DNA from: Sordariomycetes sp. S80-01Y | Taxonomy: Eukaryota; Ascomycota; Sordariomycetes | Reading direction: 5' to 3' | Length of the DNA: 64,000 nt | Assembly: GCA_037042185.1 (NCBI GenBank) | Contig: JAXQJY010000030.1 | Location: 434,001-498,000, forward strand | Shown: positions 3,652 through 62,099 of the stretch, in pieces | Numbering within the stretch: position 1 is the stretch's first letter | Layout of the letters: each line of letters begins with the position of its first letter | Notes under the pieces: model-generated | Told to the model about the DNA's origin: nothing | The model's database searches: none | Seen by the model: the letters and a program-made list of their open reading frames with translations, nothing else | Made by a program: the position numbers and the translations under genes

Positions 3652-4407
3652 ATGCCTACTGAAGGAGTCTGGATCACGCCCGAGGGCAAGAAGGTCCTCA
3701 TCCCCCTCGAAAACAATCCTGAAGTCTTCACCTCGCTCGTGCACGACCTCGGCCTCTCGCCCCTCATGGGCTTCTACGACGTCTACTCTATTGATGAGCA
3801 GTCCCTGCTTTCCATGGTCCCCCGACCTGCCCATGCACTCATCTTCATAACCCCAGCTCCAATGTACTACGCCGTTCGCGACGAAGACGGCATTCCACAG
3901 GCAGACGACAAGTTCACCTACGACAAGAGTGGCAAGGATGAACCCGTTCTGTGGTTCAGACAGACGATCGGCAATGCTTGTGGCCTGTATTCGCTGATCC
4001 ATGCCGTGGCCAACGGTGAGGGGAGGAAGTTCGTCAAGGAGGACAGTTTGTTGGGGAGGATCTTCCACGACGCGGTTGACCTCAAGCCGGAGCCGAGGGC
4101 GAGGCTGCTGTACGACAGCGAGGAGCTGGAGAAGGCTCACATGAAGAATGCTGTGACGGGGGATTCCGCAGCACCGCAAGCTGAGGATCCCTGCGGTCTG
4201 CACTTCATCACTTTCACAAAGGGTCAGGATGGACATCTGTGGGAGTTGGAGGGAGGTTGTGACGGACCTATTGATCGGGGTGTGCTGCCTGAGGATGCGG
4301 ACATGCTGAGTGAAGTGGCGCTGGAGAAGGGCATTCGCAGGTTCCTGAAGCATGCTGATGGGAACTTGGAGTTCAGCATCGTCGCACTTTGCAACAAGGA
4401 AGACTAA
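3652..4407 (+). CDS. YUH1: Ubiquitin C-terminal hydrolase, UCH family (peptidase C12)
   Basis: A cysteine protease that removes small adducts from the ubiquitin C-terminus (UCH-L1/L3/Yuh1 type). Single exon, 251 aa, typical for the family. The oxyanion Gln104 and nucleophile Cys110 sit in WFRQTIGNACGLYSLIHA. The catalytic His184 sits in CGLHFITFTK. The third triad position, normally Asp in an ELDG motif, reads ELEGG here, so Glu200 replaces Asp if the alignment is right. The start at 3652 (MPTEGVWITPEG) is chosen because homologs begin just before this segment. The open frame does extend upstream to 3463, but that extension has no family likeness and overlaps the leader uORF. Confidence 0.93.
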   Translation: MPTEGVWITPEGKKVLIPLENNPEVFTSLVHDLGLSPLMGFYDVYSIDEQSLLSMVPRPAHALIFITPAPMYYAVRDEDGIPQADDKFTYDKSGKDEPVLWFRQTIGNACGLYSLIHAVANGEGRKFVKEDSLLGRIFHDAVDLKPEPRARLLYDSEELEKAHMKNAVTGDSAAPQAEDPCGLHFITFTKGQDGHLWELEGGCDGPIDRGVLPEDADMLSEVALEKGIRRFLKHADGNLEFSIVALCNKED

Positions 4408-4755: not shown

Positions 4756-6045
4756 TTAGGGGCCAGCAATGCCGGCGACGAGGGCGACGAGAGGGGTCAG
4801 GATGGGGGCAAGGAGACCGTTGCCGAGACCAGCCAGGAGAGGGCTCAGGCCGGCGACGAGGCCAGGCAGGAGACCGGCCAGGAGGCCGTCAACGAGGGTG
4901 AGGAGGTTGGCGACCAGGGAGAAGACGGAGTGCAGCAGGGAGACCAGCTGGACACGGAGACCCAAGACGGTAACGAGGGCGTTGACGGTGGCGAGGAGCT
5001 CAGCAACGAGGACGTTGAGGAGCTCGAGGACGCGGTCAACCTGGCCGGGCATGACGGGGATGCCGGCGTCGCGGGTGATGGAGGAGACGATCTCGGTGAG
5101 GTCGAGCTGGATGCCCTGGACCTGGTCGATGACCTGGGTGTTGGCCTCCTTCTTGCTGAGCTTGGTGCTCTCAACCTTCTCGATGGTGGCGTTGATGACC
5201 TTGGTGTGCTCCTTGACGCTGACGATGAGCTTCTCCATCTTCTCGACAATGTTCAGCTGCTCGACGGCACGCTTCTCCTCGGAGCGCTTGACGGGGAGAG
5301 CCTTGACGATGTCGTTGACGGGAAGGTGGGAGACGAGGCCATCGATGGGGAGCTGGTCAACGATGTCCTGGACGGGGAGGCGCTGGACAACACCGTCGAG
5401 GAGACCGTCGACGGGAAGGCGGTCGAGGAGGGCGCTGACGAGGGGAACCTCGTTGACGATATCGCCGACAACGCGCTTGGAGTTGGTGTTGACGTTAGCG
5501 TCAGCCTTGATGTTGAGCTGGTCGACGATGGAGCCGAGAGGGAGACGGTTCAGGATGTCCTGGACGGGGAGACGCTCGATGATCTCCTGAGCGGGCAGGC
5601 GCTCAACGAGGCCAGAGGTGGGGAGCTTGTTGAGGACGCCGTCGAGGATGTCAGTGACGGCGACCTGGTCGAGCAGGCCACCGACCAGGGGCAGGCTGTC
5701 GACGATGTCGCCGGCACCACGCTTGACGGGGAGGTTCTCAGTGACACCGTTGACAACGGGGATGTTGTCGGTGATCTCGGAGATGGAGAGGCCGTCGACG
5801 ATGGACTTGACGGGCAGGTTGTTGACGATGTCGGTGATGGGGAGGCGGTCGACAAGGCCGTCGACGGGGATACGGGCAAAGATGCCGTCGAGGAGGTCGT
5901 TGGCGGCGACCTGGTCGAGGAGGTCGCCAACGATGGGCAGACCGCCAACGAGGCCCTCAACGGTGTCGATGACGCCGTCGAGGAGAGGGGCAGCAGAGGC
6001 CGCGGTGGCCAGAGTGGCCACGGAGAAGATGCCGGAGGCCTTCAT
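4756..6045 (-). CDS. Secreted repeat protein with dibasic sites, probable Kex2-processed precursor
   Basis: Single exon, 429 aa. The N-terminus is a signal peptide (about residues 1-18, ending ATAASA). Three repeat blocks follow, and each opens with a variant of DIVxxxPLVxxLLDxx...LLDG and ends at a lysine-arginine pair: KR108-109, KR190-191 and KR253-254, with a further KR258-259. Inside the blocks runs a strict nine-residue repeat of the type LPVxxIVDx; prolines fall at 60, 69, 78, 96 in block 1, 142, 151, 160, 169 in block 2, and 224, 233, 242, 251 in block 3. Residues about 260-345 are charged and helical in character. Residues 346-429 are Leu/Ala/Gly-rich and hydrophobic. KR pairs after repeats in the secretory path are the signature of Kex2 cleavage, so this likely yields several secreted peptides plus a hydrophobic C-terminal product. 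Function unknown. Both strands are open over long stretches; the signal peptide and KR pattern decide for this strand. Confidence 0.85.
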   Translation of the reverse strand: MKASGIFSVATLATAASAAPLLDGVIDTVEGLVGGLPIVGDLLDQVAANDLLDGIFARIPVDGLVDRLPITDIVNNLPVKSIVDGLSISEITDNIPVVNGVTENLPVKRGAGDIVDSLPLVGGLLDQVAVTDILDGVLNKLPTSGLVERLPAQEIIERLPVQDILNRLPLGSIVDQLNIKADANVNTNSKRVVGDIVNEVPLVSALLDRLPVDGLLDGVVQRLPVQDIVDQLPIDGLVSHLPVNDIVKALPVKRSEEKRAVEQLNIVEKMEKLIVSVKEHTKVINATIEKVESTKLSKKEANTQVIDQVQGIQLDLTEIVSSITRDAGIPVMPGQVDRVLELLNVLVAELLATVNALVTVLGLRVQLVSLLHSVFSLVANLLTLVDGLLAGLLPGLVAGLSPLLAGLGNGLLAPILTPLVALVAGIAGP

Positions 6046-9311: not shown

Positions 9312-12300
9312 ATGGCTACGCCCACGTTAGCCGAGAAGCTGGATAAGATCAGATCCCCAGGCTTGCAAAGTCAACAAAGGGTAACCCTCCCCTCTGCCCT
9401 GCTCTCCTTGACCCAGCGGCGCTGACAGATCCCAGAGCGCCGTCGTGCTCCAATCCATCGAGGCGACCCTCAAAGACCAGAACCAAACCCCCACACCGAC
9501 AGGCTACTTCGCCGCTCTCCTCGCGCTTCTCCAGCAGGCCTGCCAGGACGACAATGTCAACGCCGAACGCGCGACTCCGGTCGTCTACCTCCTCGATGTC
9601 GTGACACCCTTCGCGCCGCAGCCTCTGCTGCGGTCCAAGTTCACGACCATCTTCGGATTGCTGGCGCCCGTGCTGCTGTTGCAGGATGTTGAGGCTATTC
9701 TTCTGAGGAGCTCGATTGGGTGTCTGGAGAATCTGCTGATTGCGCAGGATACTGCCAGTTGGGAACAGTCCGTTGCGCAGATAGCACCTCGTCGCGCCGT
9801 CGCCGGGCTGCTGAATCTCTGTCTCGACCCTCGTCCCAAGGTGCGCAAGAGGGCTTTGGAAGCCATAAAGAAGGTCCTGCGAAATCCGCCCCCGAGCCCG
9901 TCTCTCGATCACCCCGCCGCAGAGATGTGCGCCCAGACAGCGGCCAAGAACCTCGAGGACCTGGCCAAGGAGCGCAAGGGCAAGAAGGCCGACGCCAACG
10001 ACCCGCCGCTACTTCATGCGCTTCAGCTGGCGAAGACGGTGGCCACCGCCAGTGGAGGTTGGCCGAGCAAGAACATCGAGAGCCTCTGCGAGCTGTTGCT
10101 GGGCATCGCCAAGACGGGCAACGAGTACATGACCATGGCTATCTTCGACATCTTCGAGGTCATCTTTGAGGGAATGACGGATGAGGTTTCTTCGGCGAAG
10201 CTTCCGAGGCTCATGGAAATCATCTCGGAGCTGCGCCCTGCCGCAAACGACACGCAACTCGTACCTCCGTGGTTGGCCATTATTTCGCGAGGCTACGACG
10301 TGTCTGCCCAGGTCGACGCCGACGAGACCTTCCAGAAGCTACCCGAGCTCTTCGAAATGGTTGCTCGCTTCCTCGAGTCCTCATCGGAGAACATTCGAAT
10401 CTCCGCCTCAGAGTGTCTGGTATCTTTCATGGCCAACTGCGTTCCTCAGCAAGTCATCCTCGACCCCTCAATCTACGACGAAAAGACCCTCGAAAAGATT
10501 GCCAAGTCCGCGGAATCCCTCCTCAGCGTCCAATATCAGGCGGCCTGGCTGCAAACCTTCAACGTCCTCGGCGCCATGTTTGAGTCCCTGCGATGGCGCG
10601 CCAACCCCATCCTTCTCAACGTTACGAAGACCATCGGCGAGATCCGCGAGAACTCCGCATTCAGGAACAAGAAGGAGGCAGACGAGGTGCTCGGAAAGGC
10701 CATCCGCGCCATGGGCCCTGATACCGTCCTCACTGTGCTCCCCCTCAACATCGCCAGGCCGGTCAAGGGCCAGAACGGCCGTGCCTGGATGTTCCCCATC
10801 CTCCGCGACTTCATCAGCAACACCCGCCTCGAGCACTTCAAGACGGAGATGCTGCCCCTGATCGACCTTCTCGTTAAGAAGGTCGCCGAGCACGGTGCTG
10901 CGGAGAAGACGATGGAGGTCAAGATCTACGAGACCCTCGTGCAACAGGTCTGGTCCACCCTCCCCGGGTACTGCGACCTGCCCCTCGACCTGACCGAGGC
11001 CTTCTCGCAGTCCTTCGCAGAGCGTCTCGCCAATGTGCTCTACGAGTCCGTTGAGCTCCGTCTCGACGTCTGTCGCGCGCTGAAGACTCTCATCGAGTCC
11101 AACCGCGTCATCGCCGACATCCCCGCCGACGAAGAGGAAGACCTCATCCTGCAAAGCCGCGTCTCCCGCCAGCAAGCCAAGGACAACCTCACCTTCCTCG
11201 GCACCATGGCCGGGAACATGCTCCTGGTCCTCCTGAACGTATACACACAGACTCTCCCCCAGAGCCGCGGCCCCATCCTGCAGACCATCAACGCGTTCCT
11301 CAGCATCACGCCCGAAGCCGAAATCACCGAGACGTTCGATCGCATCAGCACCATGCTCGCCTCTGAGCTGCAGTCCGCCGAGAACGCGGAGAAGCCGGCC
11401 AAGAAGGACAAGGACATGCCATCCACCGCGCAGACGCTGATGGATCTCGTCATCACGATGGGCGTCTACCTCCCGAGGACGAGCTTCACAACGCTCTTCA
11501 ACATCGCGTCCATCGTCATCGTCAAGAAAGACGAGCCGCAGCTGCAGAAGAAGGCGTACAAGCTCATCCCTCGCCTCGTCGAGTCCGACACCGGAAAGGA
11601 GGCTCTGCAGCAGCGATCTGCAGAGCTCCAGGGTCTCATCCTTTCCGCTACCGAGAACGTCTCCGCCCCCGCGCGAAAGGATCGTTTGGTGGCCATCTCG
11701 GCGCTGCTGCACTTCATCCCCGACACCTCCCTCCACTTCATCCCGAGCGTGCTGTCCGAGGTGGTCATCTGCTGCAAGGAGAACAATGAGCGCGCGCGCG
11801 AAGCGGCCTACGACCTGCTCGTCCAGATGGGTCACCGCATGATCGCGGCCAACGGCGCCACGATCGACAACTCCCAGGTCCCCCACATGCCTGACGACGC
11901 AGCGCCGGGCAAGGCCAACATCGAGGAGTACCTGACCATGGTCTCGGCTGGTCTGGCGGGCAGCACGCCGCACATGATCTCCGCCTCCATCACCGCGCTT
12001 TCCCGGCTCTTATTCGAGTTCCGGTCGGAGCTCAGCGAGCAGACGCTCTCGGATCTCGTCCAGACCATGGACCTGTTCCTGACGTCCAACAACAGGGAAA
12101 TTGTGAAGTCGTGCCTCGGCTTCGTCAAGGTCTGCATCATCTCCCTCCCCATCGAGCTCATGACGCCCCGCCTGTCGACCCTGGTCCCCAACCTCATCGT
12201 CTGGTCGCACGAGCACAAGGGTCACTTCAAGGCCAAGGTGAAGCACATCTTCGAGCGCATGGTCCGCCGCTTCGGCTACGACGACATCTACAAGCACACG

Positions 12301-13074
12301 CCCGACTCCGACAAGAAGCTCCTCGTCAACATCCGCAAGAGCAAGGAGCGGGCGAAGAAGCAGAAGGAGGCGAACAAGGCCGCCAACGAGGACGGCGACG
12401 AGGACGAGGAGGAAGAGGGCAAGCGGACGTACGAGAATGAGTACGACCAGGCGCTGTACTCTTCCGAGTCCGAGGATGAGGAGGATTCAGACGACGAGCC
12501 ATCCGCGCCCAAGAAGAAGTCAAAGGGCGCGAAGCAGTACATCCTCGAAGACGAGTCCGAGCCCCTCGATCTGCTATCAAGCTCGGCCCTCGCCAAGATC
12601 TCCAGCACCAAGCCCCTCAAATCCAGGAAACCCACCAAGTCCAAGGTGAAGGTCGACCTGGACGGGAAGCTCATCCTGGACGGCAAGGACGCCGACGCCA
12701 TGGACCTCGACGAGGGCGGCGAGGGCGCCCATGAGGAGAACAGCGGCGTCGGCGCGTACGTCGCCGCCCTCAAGGGCAAGGAAGCCGGGCGGCGCGGCCG
12801 CGGCGGCAAGATCAAGTTCTCCAACAGGAGGGGCAGGGACGACGACGACGAGATGGAGATGGGCGACGACGACGTCCAGGCCGTCAAGAACAAGATCAGC
12901 CCCAGGGGCAAGGGAAACTTCAGAGGAGGAGGCAGAGGCGGCCGTGGTGGTGGTGGAGGTCGCGGTCGGCCGCCGAGTGGCAAGGGCGGCATCGCGGCCG
13001 GACGGAGAGGGCTGGGCGTCGACAAGCGCAAAGGCCAGAGCGTAGGAATCGGAAAGGGCCGAGGCAAGCGGTGA
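9312..13074 (+). CDS. RRP12: RRP12, ribosomal RNA processing and export factor
   Basis: A HEAT-repeat (NUC173-type) protein that supports maturation and nuclear export of pre-40S and pre-60S subunits. Exon 1 is 9312-9380 (MATPTLAEKLDKIRSPGLQS plus QQR). Intron 9381-9435 (55 nt, phase 0, ending CCCAG). Exon 2 is 9436-13074. Total 1235 aa, matching yeast Rrp12 length. The joined segment reads KIRSPGLQSQQR then SAVVLQSIEATLKDQ and PTGYFAALLALLQQ, the family's N-terminal pattern. The closer AG at 9427-9428 would break the frame. Helical repeats fill residues 1 to about 1000. The C-terminal 230 residues are acidic/basic and disordered, ending in an RGG-like arginine-glycine tract and a lysine/arginine tail that suits a nucleolar RNA-binding role. 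Confidence 0.94.
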
Positions 13075-16771: not shown

Positions 16772-18672
16772 TCACCGCACGAGACCTTGACGATCAAGCA
16801 TGAAGTTGACCTCGAGCGGAATGTCGACTTGTGTGAGATTGCCGCTTGTAGTCTCCATGAGGTCGGTGCTGCCAAGCAGCTTGCCGTCCGCGTCGAGACC
16901 GGCAACTCGAACGAAGGGATGCTGATGCGGAATCTTCATCTTAGTCTCGAACCCGCCGCGGTAGACAATGTACTGGGGCTCGAGTGAATCCATCGTTTCA
17001 CCCGAGAACTATACGGCGTCAGTCATCGGAATCCTCAGCGAAAAAAGAGCGGACTTACCATTGCCCAGTATGCAAGTTCTGTAGCACCGTTCCAGCTCAC
17101 ATACGCATTGTACTCAAAAAGAGCGATCGAGGGGTTCCACGGAGGGTACGCCTTCCAGTCCATGCTGTAAATACGGTAGACATGGGCAACACCCTCGGTA
17201 GCCGTACTCCATGGGCCGGTCTGTACGTCCAGCAGCACCTCGCCGTCCCTCGAATACTCTGTGAAACCAGGAACCTTGCCCCAGCCGATCAGCATATTGC
17301 CGTTTCCTTGCCTCTGGGCGGATCCCTCGGCGCGAGCTTGAACGCTGTAGGGGTGCCAGTATGACTTGATAACTTCGGCAGTCTTGGCGGTGTGATCCAA
17401 GCGGATCGCAAGACCGCGAGAGCACTGCTCCTTGCAACCAGGCACAGGCTGCGTGGGCGCAAGCTGAGCGTTGTCGAACATGACAATCTCTGTCTGCTCC
17501 TCGTTATCGAAGCGAGCGTGATGCTGGTATCCGAAGTTGGTAGCCCATCCATCCGACAGGTCCCTGTACTGGTTGTTGTTGCCGCCGACCTGCCAGATGG
17601 GACGCCCCGAGGTACCGTTGACGAGGGTGATGACCTTGTGCCGACGGCCAACGACGAGGTAGTTGCCATCCTTGGTCTTCTCCAAACTGTTGATGTGAAA
17701 GAAGTCCCAGCCATCGCCGTGAGTAGGGTGGCCATAGTCTGACTCATCGTTGTAAGGCACAGCAGTGTCGACAATGGAGAACCAGTCCGATGCGCGCCAC
17801 TTGAACCTTGTCTCGCCCGTCTCAATATCGACCTCCTCAAAGCACGAGTCCTGGAGCACACCGTCCCGCGGTCCGCCAACAGGGGTCATGTCGAAGTTGC
17901 GAACGGTCTCGTAGACTGAGAACATGGCGCCGCCATCGTGGGTAAGCTGGAACTCGTGCGAGTCGGCGCGCGAGTTGAAGGCATTGATAGAAATGTTGTA
18001 GGCCAGCTCATACTTGTCATCGAAGAGAACGCCTTGGCCGAGACCGTGACCAGGAGCTGGCTCGCCTTGCCAGAAGGTCAGGTACTGCTTGCCGTTATAT
18101 TCTTGCATGCGGAAGTTGTTGGTGGAGTGGTAGCCGGTCTGGGCGTAGACGAGGGAAAGGTCCTTGCGGGAGAAGATCTGAACACCCGACTTTTGGTCCT
18201 TAACAGAAGGCGTGGCGAAGAAGTATGGACTCCCTTCCGTTGCTCTAGGCTTGAAGGTGTTGACCTGGAACAAGGGCGTCTTGATGTCGGAAGAGTGGAA
18301 TGTCTGCTGTGGGCGCTTTCCGAACTTTTCCTCCTCGTTGTAGATGTGCGAGTTCCAGTGGAGGTTGCTGCTCGAGTCTGGCTGGCTGACCGTCATGACA
18401 ATCGGCTCTGGCTCAGGTTCAGGTTCAGGCTCCTCGGCAGGCTCCTCGACCATGGGAGGATCGGCGGGATCTGGACCATCGTGGTGGTCGTGACCGTGTG
18501 CAGCTTCGGCGACATTGTTGGCATCGCTAGGGTCGAGATGTCCGAAGAAGATGTAGGCGAGGCTGTAAAAGAGAAAAATACAAGCAGCGAGTCCAGCAAG
18601 AATGATGAAGAAGCTCGAGCGTTTGCGACGCTTCTCACCCGACAGGCCGGCGAGCCAAGGCGGCGTCGACAT
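16772..18672 (-). CDS. Membrane-anchored arylsulfotransferase-like (ASST family) protein
   Basis: Exon 1 is 18672-17059 and exon 2 is 17008-16772, with intron 17058-17009 (50 nt, GTAAGT...GTATAG, phase 0); 616 aa. A single membrane segment lies at about residues 20-44 after a short basic N-terminus, giving a type II topology. A Pro-Glu repeat stalk (about 75-95) follows. The large remainder has the arylsulfotransferase-like beta-propeller features of the fungal Arylsulfotran_2 group, for example SPYFFATPS, YLTFWQGEPAPGHGLGQG, DSCFEEVDIETGETRFKWRA, HINSLEKTKDGNYLVVGRR and RPIWQVGG. Bacterial members move sulfate between phenols; the activity of fungal members is unproven, so the name is a family label only. 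It probably faces the secretory lumen or cell exterior. Confidence 0.85.
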
Positions 18673-27176: not shown

Positions 27177-28947
27177 ATGTCAGCCCCTGGGCAGAACAAC
27201 GTCGATATCGACGCTCTGCTTGATCTCACCGAGTACGATGGCATGACCAACCAGAGCCTTTCCCCGTCGCCTTCGTCGACGTCAAAGAACAACTTCGCCA
27301 GTCCTGTATCGGCAGCGGTCACAACGCCGGCGATGCCGTCGACCAACACACAGACCTTGAGCGGTCCCAGCCACAACTATGACATGTATCGCCAACAGAC
27401 CGGCTTTGTCCCTGGCGCCCTTGCTACGACCATGGCTGTCAACCAGTCAAACAACACTGGCTATCAGGACTTCGGTAGCCTCGACTATCTGTCCAACTTG
27501 AGCCCCGAGAACGACATCTTCGACTTCAATACGACTCCTTCGCAACCCAACATGGGTGATTCTCAAATCGAGATGGACTTCGAGTCACCCAACGAGACCC
27601 AGAACTTCTTTTCCACCATCAACCCTAGCAACATTGAGCAGGAGGCCAACCTGTCGCCGCCGACGACTGGCAGCGTTGGCCGTCTCTGGCCCGGCGCGCA
27701 TTCGCAGGCCGCCATGGCTAAGGCCAACCAGCAGCGCCAGCAGCAGCAGCAGCAGCAGATGATGCAGCAACAACAGCAACAGCAGGCCCGTCAGAGCCAG
27801 CAGCCAAAGTCGCGCGGCAAGGCTCCCCAGCCGACCGATCCTCTCGTCGAGCAGAAGATCACGCAACTCCTCAACTCCATGCGAGCCAAGCCCCCTTCGC
27901 CTGATTCTCAGAAGAACTTCGCCGTTGCCAACCTGCCCAGGTCTAAGAAGGAAGAGGAGGAGATGGATGAGGACGAACGTCTATTGGCGAGTGAGGAGGG
28001 CAAGAAACTAAGCAGCAAGGAGCGTCGCCAGCTGCGCAACAAGGTGTCAGCACGTGCCTTCCGCTCGAGGAGAAAGGGTAAGCTCACCGAATGCCATTGT
28101 CCCTACTAGACTAACTTTTGCAGAATACATCACTCAGCTGGAGGCTGAGATTGCCGGCAAGGTCAATGAGAACGGTGACCTCCGTGCCCAGAACCGCGCT
28201 CTTCTTGAGGAGAACAAGCGTCTGTCTGACTTGACCCGCATGCTCCTGTCCTCGCCTTCTTTTTCAAACTTTCTCGACCACCTGAGTGCGAACCCTGCGC
28301 AGATTCCCGGGGGGATGGTCAAGCCTGAGCACCAACAGCAGCAGCAGCAACAACAACAGCAGCAGCAGCAGCCACCCAAGGATGTCAGCCCCTACGGTAA
28401 CCAGCCATCGCAGCAGCAGATTGGCATGGCCATGATTCCTGAGCAGACCATGGACTTTTCCATGTTGTCTCTTGACGGCAATGCCTACGCGTACCAGCCT
28501 CAGGTTTTTGTTGTCGACACCCCTGACATGCCTGCTCCCATTGATACTGCTGTCCTCTCTGGCAAGTCCTCCAACTTTGTCGAGCCCGAATCCGACGACG
28601 ACAAGATTGAGGTGCCCGCCATCGAGCGCCCAATTGAGCGTGAGGAGCCCACAGCGGCAATCTCCGCTCCCGTCGACGAGGACTTTGAGAACGATCCCGA
28701 ATTCGCCCTGTACCACTCCGAACCTACCACCGCCTGTGAGCCTGCCAAGGAAATCGACACCGACAGCTTCTCGCATGTTGATATCTTTGGCGGCCTTGAG
28801 ACTGAGAAGGTTCTTGCTCGCTACGATCTCATCGATGCCACCGAAGAGGAAGCATCAGCCACACTATCAATGGCCCGTGTGCAACGCATCAGTGATACAA
28901 TCGAAGGCGTAACTTCGAGGTTGGAACTGCTGACGATGGGCTTATAA
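27177..28947 (+). CDS. bZIP transcription factor, glutamine-rich
   Basis: Exon 1 27177-28077, intron 28078-28123 (46 nt, GTAAGC...TTGCAG), exon 2 28124-28947; 574 aa. The intron cuts the bZIP itself: the basic region KERRQLRNKVSARAFRSRRK ends exon 1 and the zipper EYITQLEAEIAGKVNENGDL starts exon 2. The DNA-contacting NxxSxxxFRxRR pattern is intact (NKVSARAFRSRR). Before it lie a Ser/Thr/Asn-rich N-terminus, a Gln tract (27738-27786) and an acidic stretch; after it a second Gln tract (28333-28371) and an acidic C-terminal half suited to activation. It resembles the fungal bZIP group with a central NKVSARAFRSRRKEY signature; I cannot assign an exact ortholog or targets. Reading through the intron would stop at once after SRRKGKLTECHCPY, so the splice is needed. 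Confidence 0.92.
27738..27786 (+). repeat. CAG/CAA tract encoding polyglutamine
   Basis: A run of CAG and CAA codons broken by two ATG codons within exon 1 of the bZIP gene. CAA interruptions limit slippage. A second tract sits at 28333-28371 in exon 2. Confidence 0.85.
28333..28371 (+). repeat. Second CAG/CAA polyglutamine tract
   Basis: A mixed CAG/CAA run just after the leucine zipper of the bZIP gene, encoding about 13 glutamines. Likely variable in length between strains. Confidence 0.85.
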
Positions 28948-59174: not shown

Positions 59175-62099
59175 ATGAGGTTTCAAGGGATATGCATGAG
59201 CTTGGTAGCCTTGCTACCAGGTCTCATCAGTGCCAACGATTACCTCGCTTATACTGTCACCGAGACCAGCATTACATACGTCGGCCTTGGCCAATGTGAT
59301 GCTCTCTGCGCGGAACCGACTCCTTTCCCCAACCCTCCCGAGCAGCAACACAACTGTGCCGACTGTGAGCAAGGTCACGGCACTTACGAGCATGGCGGCC
59401 ACGGCGGTACGTCGGGCCAAGGGGTTCGTCACAAATGTCCCAACCAAGGGAAATGCAAGCCAGTGCCGTGGACACACCACAAGTACCCGTGCAAGGATGA
59501 ATGCAAGGCCTACGAGTTGGTCGAGACTTGCAACGCAAGCATCTGCTATATCGAGATCCCTGGCTTGGAACGTGGCTGCGAATCCGATGCCGACTGCAAC
59601 GAAGGCCAGGCCTGTGGCTCCAACCGCCTATGTGAACTGCTCAGCGGCCCTGCCTGTCAGGTCAACAATGACTGCCAAGAAGGCACAATTTGCAACACAC
59701 ACGACCATTGCGAGCCGTTCCTTGGTCCCGAGTGTAACGGGGATCAAGACTGCAGAAACAGACAGGTCTGCAGTCCGCAGGGGATCTGCGAGAACAGCTC
59801 TGGCCCCCGATGCGAGTCTTCGGATGATTGCCCACTGAACGAAGTCTGCAACCCTCTGGGCTTCTGCCAAGGTCCCATTCTGCCTCGCGAAGGCTGCCAG
59901 CACACTGCGGACTGTCCGATCGGAGAGTTCTGCACACAAGAAGGCCTGTGCGAGACCTCGCCGGGTGATGGATGCACTTCAAGCGCAGACTGCGATAGCG
60001 GCGAAACCTGCAACGAACAAGGTCTTTGCCAACGAGCGACCTTGCCCCGCTGCACGTCAGACTCTGACTGTGGTCGGGATGAAGTTTGTCAGGGCAGTGA
60101 ATGCCGTAAGGTCAACCCTCCGCAGTGTTCAGCGGATTCGGATTGCGGCGAAGCCGAGCGCTGCTTGAACGGGTCGTGCCAGCCCATTGAACTTCCGCAA
60201 TGCTCCGTCAATGAGGACTGCGAACAGGGAGAGGTTTGCGACGCCGATGGGACATGCCAAATCGCTCCTGGGTGCCAGGTAGATGCCGACTGCGAGCAAG
60301 GGGAGTTCTGCAATGGGAACAATGCTTGTGAGACCAGTCCACAAGGGTGTCGCCAGGATTCAGACTGCCCTGAAGGACAGGCGTGTGCTGAGACCGGCGT
60401 TTGTTTCGCTGCTCGTCGAGGATGTAAGGACGATTCCCAGTGCCCGGACAACCAAGTATGCAATAGCGGCGTGTGCGAAGACTCCGAGAACTGTCGTTCC
60501 GACTCAGACTGCTCAGGCAACCAGATTTGCAACGCCGGGGTCTGTGAAGTCCCAGAAGGCTGCCAGGCAGACTCGGACTGCCCCGACAACGAAATCTGCA
60601 GTGGAGGTGTTTGCCGCGCAGAAGATGAATGCCAAAGCGACTCGGATTGCGCCGGGAGCGAGGTCTGTACAGATGGAACCTGCCAGCCTGGAGAAGAATG
60701 CACCAGCGACTCAGACTGCTCAGGGGACGAGATATGTAACGCCGGTGTTTGTGAAGTCCCAGAGGGTTGTCAGTCCGACTCGGACTGCTCAGGGGACGAA
60801 GTATGCAACGCCGGTGTTTGTGAAGTCCCAGAGGGCTGCCAGGTAGACTCGGACTGCCCCGACAACGAAATCTGCAGTGGAGGTGTTTGCCGCGCAGAAG
60901 ATGAATGCCAAAGCGACTCGGATTGCGCCGGGAGCGAGGTCTGTACAGATGGAACCTGCCAGCCTGGAGAAGAATGCGCCAGCGACTCAGACTGCTCAGG
61001 GGATGAGATATGCAACGCCGGTGTTTGTGAAGTCCCAGAGGGCTGTCAGGAAGACGCAGACTGCCCAGGGAACGAGATCTGCAACGCCGGAGTTTGTGAA
61101 ACCTCAGAGGGCTGCCAGGTAGACTCGGACTGCCCCGACAACGAAATCTGCAGTGGAGGTGTTTGCCGCGCAGAAGATGAATGCCAAAGCGACTCGGATT
61201 GCGCCGAGAGCGAGGTCTGTACAGATGGAACCTGCCAGCCTGGAGGAGAATGCACCAGCGATGGCGATTGCGAGGACAACCAGACGTGTGAGGACGGCGT
61301 CTGTGTGGATGTGCCCGAGCCGGATTGTACAACCAACGCCGACTGCACAGGTGGCCTCGTCTGCAAGGATAATGTCTGTGCCGAGTGTACAGCAGATTCT
61401 GATTGCGACGCGAACCAGTCATGTGGCGATGGGGTCTGTCTCGATCCTCCCAACTGTACACCAGGAACGCAGTGGGAGTTCTTCAAGCTGGCTCAATCGT
61501 CATCCGACACCCAGAGCGAGCCGGGCAGAATTCCTCAGTATTCTGCAGCGAACCCCACGGACTGGGCGACAACATACGTCAACGTGCAGACTATACTTGA
61601 AGGCCAGACGCCTGACTTGACTGGGTCGGCTCGGACGTTCGGAATCACTCAATTCTGCTCAGCCCAGGACGCCACCATCTACGGACAACAGGCGAACTCG
61701 AACGTGGAATACAGCGTCATTCAGCATATCGGATATTTCCACCCGACGAAGGCGGGCACCTACTCATTCAGACCCAACAATGCTGATGAGGTCGTCTATT
61801 TGTGGCTAGGCGACAACGCCAAGTCCGGCTTCACTGTTGGCAATGCCGATGTCGTTGCTGTTGCAGATAACAATGGCCTCGGCGATCAGACACTTGCGTA
61901 CAATGTTCAAGACGCCGATGTTGGTGGATATGTTCCTTTCCGGTTACTCTGGATCAACACGCAAACATGTGGTCAATTCTCTTTGGTCGTCGACGATCCT
62001 GACGGGAATCAGATTGTGTCCCGAGGACTGCAATCGACTGATGATGCGTTTGGGTATGATTGCGGCGCCAATACGGTTGCGCCGCCTTTTGACTTCTAG
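59175..62099 (+). CDS. Secreted cysteine-module GLEYA-domain protein (adhesin-like)
   Basis: Single exon, 974 aa. Signal peptide about residues 1-20 (ends GLISA). Residues 21-130 form a separate Cys-containing N-terminal region. Then come 26 tandem modules of roughly 23 residues, each with four cysteines spaced C-x5-C-x5-C-x4/5-C and a core such as CQSDSDCSGDEVCNAGVC. The C-terminal 210 residues (from CTPGTQWEFF) form a GLEYA/PA14-like lectin domain: YFHPTKAGTYSFRPNNADEV, VYLWLGDNA, GGYVPFRLLWINTQTCGQFS, LVVDDPDG. GLEYA domains bind glycans in yeast flocculins and adhesins. No C-terminal hydrophobic tail for a GPI anchor is seen, so the protein is probably secreted or held by disulfides in the wall. 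Both other frames and the antisense strand stay open across the repeats as a side effect of composition. Confidence 0.9.
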   Translation: MRFQGICMSLVALLPGLISANDYLAYTVTETSITYVGLGQCDALCAEPTPFPNPPEQQHNCADCEQGHGTYEHGGHGGTSGQGVRHKCPNQGKCKPVPWTHHKYPCKDECKAYELVETCNASICYIEIPGLERGCESDADCNEGQACGSNRLCELLSGPACQVNNDCQEGTICNTHDHCEPFLGPECNGDQDCRNRQVCSPQGICENSSGPRCESSDDCPLNEVCNPLGFCQGPILPREGCQHTADCPIGEFCTQEGLCETSPGDGCTSSADCDSGETCNEQGLCQRATLPRCTSDSDCGRDEVCQGSECRKVNPPQCSADSDCGEAERCLNGSCQPIELPQCSVNEDCEQGEVCDADGTCQIAPGCQVDADCEQGEFCNGNNACETSPQGCRQDSDCPEGQACAETGVCFAARRGCKDDSQCPDNQVCNSGVCEDSENCRSDSDCSGNQICNAGVCEVPEGCQADSDCPDNEICSGGVCRAEDECQSDSDCAGSEVCTDGTCQPGEECTSDSDCSGDEICNAGVCEVPEGCQSDSDCSGDEVCNAGVCEVPEGCQVDSDCPDNEICSGGVCRAEDECQSDSDCAGSEVCTDGTCQPGEECASDSDCSGDEICNAGVCEVPEGCQEDADCPGNEICNAGVCETSEGCQVDSDCPDNEICSGGVCRAEDECQSDSDCAESEVCTDGTCQPGGECTSDGDCEDNQTCEDGVCVDVPEPDCTTNADCTGGLVCKDNVCAECTADSDCDANQSCGDGVCLDPPNCTPGTQWEFFKLAQSSSDTQSEPGRIPQYSAANPTDWATTYVNVQTILEGQTPDLTGSARTFGITQFCSAQDATIYGQQANSNVEYSVIQHIGYFHPTKAGTYSFRPNNADEVVYLWLGDNAKSGFTVGNADVVAVADNNGLGDQTLAYNVQDADVGGYVPFRLLWINTQTCGQFSLVVDDPDGNQIVSRGLQSTDDAFGYDCGANTVAPPFDF
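60571..61262 (+). repeat. 276-bp higher-order tandem repeat inside the GLEYA gene
   Basis: Copies start at 60571, 60847 and 61123, exactly 276 bp (92 codons, four cysteine modules) apart. The first about 205 bp of copies 1 and 2 differ at only about four sites by eye, and about 130 bp of copy 3 differ from copy 2 at about two. The fourth module of each copy is more diverged. The near-identity at silent sites points to recent duplication or gene conversion. Confidence 0.9.

Follow-up and report, generated by a model that had tools for sequence, protein, structure and literature searches.

What does the long open reading frame (ORF) at positions 4756-6045 on the minus strand of a window from Sordariomycetes sp. 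S80-01Y encode? The window is the whole stretch analysed, 64,000 nucleotides of contig JAXQJY010000030.1 (positions 434,001 to 498,000). A preliminary description, made from the sequence alone, proposed a Kex2-type precursor with a strict nine-residue repeat. From the layout of the protein, its repeats, the placement of its Lys-Arg (KR) pairs, a paralogue without repeat blocks, codon bias and a helical amphipathic periodicity, we infer, with a probability of about 0.5, an abundant secreted precursor; Kex2 would process it into amphipathic helical surface peptides and an independent hydrophobic domain, functioning like the Ustilago repellents Rep1 and Hum3.

The gene is a single uninterrupted frame of 429 codons plus stop, supported by the ORF listing and by codon bias; it runs from an ATG at 6045 to a stop at 4756-4758, and all features given here lie on the minus strand. 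Residues 1-18 (5992-6045) form a plausible signal peptide. Judged by eye, they have typical n, h and c regions and a cleavage motif between ASA and AP that agrees with the -3/-1 rule; the start of the paralogue is similar. Three blocks follow: block 1 (residues 19-109, 5719-5991) and block 3 (residues 192-254, 5284-5472) end in LPVKR, and block 2 (residues 110-191, 5473-5718) ends in NSKR. A SEEKR spacer (5269-5283) leads to the C-terminal domain (residues 260-429, 4759-5268), which stands alone in the paralogue and in which charged helices precede a hydrophobic Leu/Val-rich tail. All the parts listed in the preliminary description (a plausible signal peptide, KR-ended blocks, charged helical segment, hydrophobic tail) are present.

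The three blocks are homologous, as proposed. Local alignment scores between them are 171, 132 and 148, compared with maxima of 63-70 in 500 shuffles, and the other two blocks are 46 and 44% identical to block 3. Identity at a lag of nine over residues 19-258 is 51, versus 21.1 +/- 4.3 in shuffled sequence (maximum 37 in 5000 shuffles); eight proline pairs are spaced nine apart (shuffle mean 1.2, maximum 7). While the period of nine stands, its strictness does not: prolines form interrupted runs of three to four units (60-69-78-(Ser87)-96, 142-151-160-169 and 224-233-242-251), with other offsets between runs. The unit consensus, L-P-[VI]-x-[GDSE]-[IL]-V-[DNE]-x, holds in most of 12 hand-picked nine-mers.

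A proline opens each unit, and hydrophobic residues occupy positions 3, 6, 7 and 10 (10 being the Leu of the next unit), i.e. i, i+3, i+4 and i+7. These positions would fit one face of a two-turn alpha-helix. In 14 hand-picked segments, the mean hydrophobic moment at 100 degrees is 0.628, versus 0.357 for within-segment shuffles, and none of 2000 shuffles reaches 0.628; at 160 and 180 degrees, the angles of beta-strands, moments fall under the shuffle means. The nine-mer is thus consistent with a proline-hinged, two-turn amphipathic alpha-helix and not with a beta pattern, which supports the amphipathic nonapeptide pattern suggested earlier. Structure prediction of one block had been suggested as a check. 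AlphaFold2, run without a deep alignment on block 3 and on the full protein, places short helices between the prolines; the models are of low confidence and only hint at such helices.

Amphipathic units separated by KR pairs, in a gene with strong codon bias, could also belong to a precursor of membrane-active peptides, directed against competitors or hosts and processed like Ece1. However, the blocks are net acidic (K+R 5, 7 and 5 versus D+E 14, 11 and 9) and broken by prolines, and most lytic peptides are not net acidic; this explanation is improbable.

The residue-pair count bears on processing. KR pairs were expected at residues 108-109 (5719-5724), 190-191 (5473-5478) and 253-254 (5284-5289). 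All three predicted Kex2 sites are found, but the list was incomplete: a fourth pair, at 258-259 in the SEEKR spacer, separates the repeat region from the C-terminal domain. Shuffles that keep the composition average 0.55 KR pairs, and a fraction of 0.0008 of 5000 reach the four seen here; the only other dibasic pair in the protein is a single KK, with no RK or RR. A KR lies at most three residues ahead of both internal block starts, which has a chance of 0.0011 under random placement in a post hoc test with blocks partly defined by KR. The terminal LPVKR of blocks 1 and 3 places KR at nine-mer positions 4-5; a cut there would therefore fall inside the repeat pattern. The genome holds a single P_proprotein (Kex2-type) match, with an expectation value (E) of 8.7e-29. 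At the level of sequence, the layout of a Kex2-type precursor is borne out.

The tail (residues 333-429) has a grand average of hydropathy of 1.46, and its top 19-residue window reaches 2.01. One relative was found in the genome (30.9 Mb on 16 contigs, the sole fungal genome covered), some 0.7 Mb from the gene on its own contig (C13:1151799-1152493). After removal of a predicted 59-base intron (GTATGT...CTAAC...AAG), it encodes 212 residues, in which a short linker joins a similar signal peptide to the C-terminal domain, with no KR blocks. At the site of the intron (L004:4234-4292), the reading frame of the window gene is uninterrupted. Over the aligned exon, the two C-terminal domains share 72% identity; the slices used for this and the following comparison begin at R259, one residue early. 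By the Nei-Gojobori method, nonsynonymous and synonymous divergence (dN and dS) are 0.127 and 0.49 in the tail, the best conserved part, and 0.576 and 0.44 in the charged helical segment. The values for the charged segment are not taken as a sign of positive selection, because dS is depressed by codon bias and the alignment there includes linker of doubtful homology.

Since the paralogue carries this domain without KR blocks, the C-terminal domain is an independent unit, as the preliminary description had it, and the blocks are a module that was gained or lost. The pair with and without the repeat module provides a natural comparison. No further genomic copies of the blocks or the domain were found in single-protein searches, in which only the best candidates were scored and which are insensitive to distant relatives.

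The tail also bears on a different explanation, in which the protein stays uncut as an abundant wall- or membrane-associated product, the repeats serve as a flexible amphipathic spacer, the tail is an anchor (by membrane insertion or a signal like that for glycosylphosphatidylinositol, GPI) and the KR pairs are incidental. Transmembrane-like windows in the tail (up to 2.01) and its strong conservation in the paralogue agree with this, as does the fact that K and R in blocks 1 and 3 fill nine-mer positions 4-5, which are polar and variable. However, KR pairs exceed chance in both number and placement at block joints, and the fourth lies just ahead of a domain that the paralogue has without any KR blocks. 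Sequence conservation is hardly required of GPI signals, yet the tail is the best conserved part. An uncut protein is possible but doubtful.

Searches of Pfam (at its cut-off), NCBIfam and PDB sequences yielded no credible relatives of the protein, and the C-terminal domain matches no Pfam family at that cut-off; the Pfam and NCBIfam results agree with the earlier remark that the nonapeptide matches no named family. The one match with a low E, to a LIM-domain protein (6.4e-8), was rejected as homology because its score was summed over many low-complexity nine-residue repeats, none of which passes singly. Viral contigs scanned with alignments of the C-terminal domain and the blocks gave 99 and 119 pattern matches, and prokaryote genomes scanned with the domain alignment gave 138; none was confirmed as a relative, and these scans are uninformative on other fungi.

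The C-terminal domain could be a divergent lipid-binding helical bundle of the HsbA/Mp1p type, with the repeats as a pro-region or extension and a product that binds fatty acids or hydrophobic surfaces. HsbA and Mp1p are secreted helical fungal proteins, and the modelled domain is weakly similar to them; a link at the sequence level was not found, and pairwise results are mixed and weak. PF12296 (HsbA) has no match up to E 10 in the full protein, the domain or the paralogue. Against the HsbA copies of the same genome, a domain profile built from two sequences gives a probability of 0.4%. One of four pairwise tests is suggestive, in a test that misses three of six true HsbA pairs. This explanation is unlikely. 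Four HsbA-domain matches form a local cluster inside 8 kb (C15:1095437-1103030).

Codon usage was compared with a reference of 497 codons from pieces of genes recognised from sequence, presumably those for EF2, EF1-alpha and histone H3. The codon adaptation index (CAI) is 0.804 for the gene, 0.830 for the repeat region, 0.798 for the C-terminal domain and 0.728 for the paralogue. Ten other window genes, picked for their Pfam matches, have values of 0.232-0.473, and the same protein recoded with their pooled usage reached at most 0.429 in 1000 trials. The effective number of codons (Nc) is 27.3, the lowest among 27 non-overlapping window ORFs of at least 150 codons (a mechanical pick of the longest, including this gene and some that are surely not genes); EF2 has 29.1, EF1-alpha 29.6 and two histone H3 exons 26.0 and 33.6. 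These values strongly support a genuine gene in the minus-strand frame and suggest that its product is very abundant. An RRP12-like gene at 9925-13071 (plus strand) has a third-position GC content of 0.86 and an Nc of 36.4, yet its CAI is only 0.47.

A signal peptide and KR-separated repeats are also found in precursors of alpha-pheromones and of ustiloxin-type cyclic peptides, two options raised by the preliminary description. Both are highly improbable here. The units are 63-91 residues long, and a codon bias on par with the most expressed genes points to an abundant product and is therefore ill-suited to a trace signal peptide; a pheromone-like role is disfavoured on these grounds. The mature protein contains no Cys, Trp or Tyr. 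UstYa has three matches in the genome, confined to C2 and C15, with none on the gene's contig, C13. The missing residues and the absence of UstYa matches from the contig argue against both ustiloxin-type peptides and hydrophobins.

For the Kex2-processed surface precursor, the following course is proposed. Signal peptidase would remove residues 1-18, and Kex2 in the late Golgi would cut after KR109, KR191, KR254 and KR259. If a Kex1-type enzyme then removed the K and R, LPV would become the C-terminal end of peptides 1 and 3. The products would be a hydrophobic helical domain of 170 residues and three peptides, homologous to one another and each some 60-90 residues long. Each peptide may form a chain of two-turn amphipathic alpha-helices with a proline hinge about every nine residues, with Val, Ile and Leu on one face and Asp, Gln, Asn and Arg on the other. 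Such chains should lie flat at interfaces between hydrophobic material and water; the products would therefore most likely coat the surface of hyphae or spores.

A number of points weigh against this proposal. Cleavage at the KR sites is a prediction, and the placement test is post hoc. Codon bias bears at most on expression level and not on function. Mean predicted local distance difference test scores are 45.9 for the full protein and 50.9 for block 3, and are about 30 over most repeats in the full model. The peptides of Rep1 assemble into amyloid-like fibrils (PMC4617103), whereas the periodicity here is helical; assembly would therefore differ. The genome also has class II hydrophobins, with eight matches at four places (C10, C9 and C2). 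Against the minus-strand frame as the real gene, one antisense frame (4756-6045, plus strand) is free of stops across all 1290 bases, and the plus strand opposite the gene has ATG-initiated ORFs of 273 and 136 codons. We attribute the open plus strand to the codon bias of the gene, because the minus strand is favoured strongly by codon usage and modestly by the way paralogue differences are spread over codon positions. An opposite-strand transcript, which the preliminary description regarded as refuting, is likewise disfavoured.

A ubiquitin C-terminal hydrolase gene (3652-4407, plus strand) converges on the gene. Nine of ten further long window ORFs have Pfam matches at E 1e-5, none of them to UstYa or tyrosinase. 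An arylsulfotransferase-like protein is encoded about 11 kb away (17038-18672, minus strand). On the plus strand, an ORF of 310 residues (27177-28106) has no Pfam match at 1e-5, and one of 974 residues (59175-62096) has an adhesin-like architecture, in which a GLEYA domain at the C-terminus is combined with matches to DUF7107 and to Cys-rich (Dickkopf_N-like) families. Elsewhere in the genome, the first 4.4 kb of C7, near the contig end, contain two histone-like matches with in-frame stops.

Comparison with known systems places the gene among Kex2-processed repeat proteins. As described in the surveys, KEX2-processed repeat proteins (KEPs) have a signal peptide and at least three repeats of 8-100 residues between Kex2 sites (PMC7329392; PMC6339444). 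The gene shares this layout, with a plausible signal peptide: judged by block length and KR ends, its blocks of 91, 82 and 63 residues fall inside the length range (Umemura 2020), and what stands ahead of block 1 is the signal peptide rather than a KR. Unlike KEPs, it has long, diverged units with an inner nine-residue helical period, and its tail, with windows up to 2.01, might fail the TMHMM filter described for one survey (PMC6339444; Le Marquer 2019). Ece1 of Candida albicans is described as a Kex2-cut polyprotein that yields eight peptides (PMC7329392). It is alike in layout by this description; the blocks here are acidic and proline-hinged.

The Ustilago repellents are the parallel for the proposed function. 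According to the account in PMC4617103, Rep1 has 12 repeats of 34-55 residues, and its cleavage yields 10 amphipathic peptides (35-53 residues) and one of 228 residues. By that description, both proteins have imperfect amphipathic repeats between Kex2 sites and one large product; here there are three blocks of 63-91 residues. The Rep1-type trait of amphipathic Kex2-bounded peptides is present as far as sequence can tell (a moment reached by 0 of 2000 shuffles, and KR bounds). In Hum3 of Ustilago maydis, a hydrophobin domain is described as coming after amphipathic repeats, most of which are set apart by putative Kex2 motifs (PMC4617103). The gene resembles it in that a surface-active domain would follow the Kex2-split repeats, and differs in that this domain has no Pfam match at cut-off and the mature protein, having no Cys, lacks the eight-cysteine pattern of hydrophobins.

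In Botrytis cinerea, loss of all three hydrophobin genes reportedly leaves surface hydrophobicity similar to wild type (PMC3032640). Fungal water repellency does not always come from hydrophobins, and a highly codon-biased precursor of amphipathic helices would make a concrete candidate for a coating; its simple nine-residue rule is a possible template for surfactant peptides. More tentatively, the gene may represent a third fungal surface-active class beside hydrophobins and repellents. In this reading, Kex2 would free large amounts of chains built from nine-residue amphipathic alpha-helices with proline hinges, comparable in principle to apolipoproteins, and these would act together with a hydrophobic helical domain that serves as their dedicated partner and that the paralogue also supplies on its own. 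The gene is best read as a variation on known Kex2-processed surface peptides rather than as a new kind of system, differing from them in its helical peptides and its C-terminal domain.
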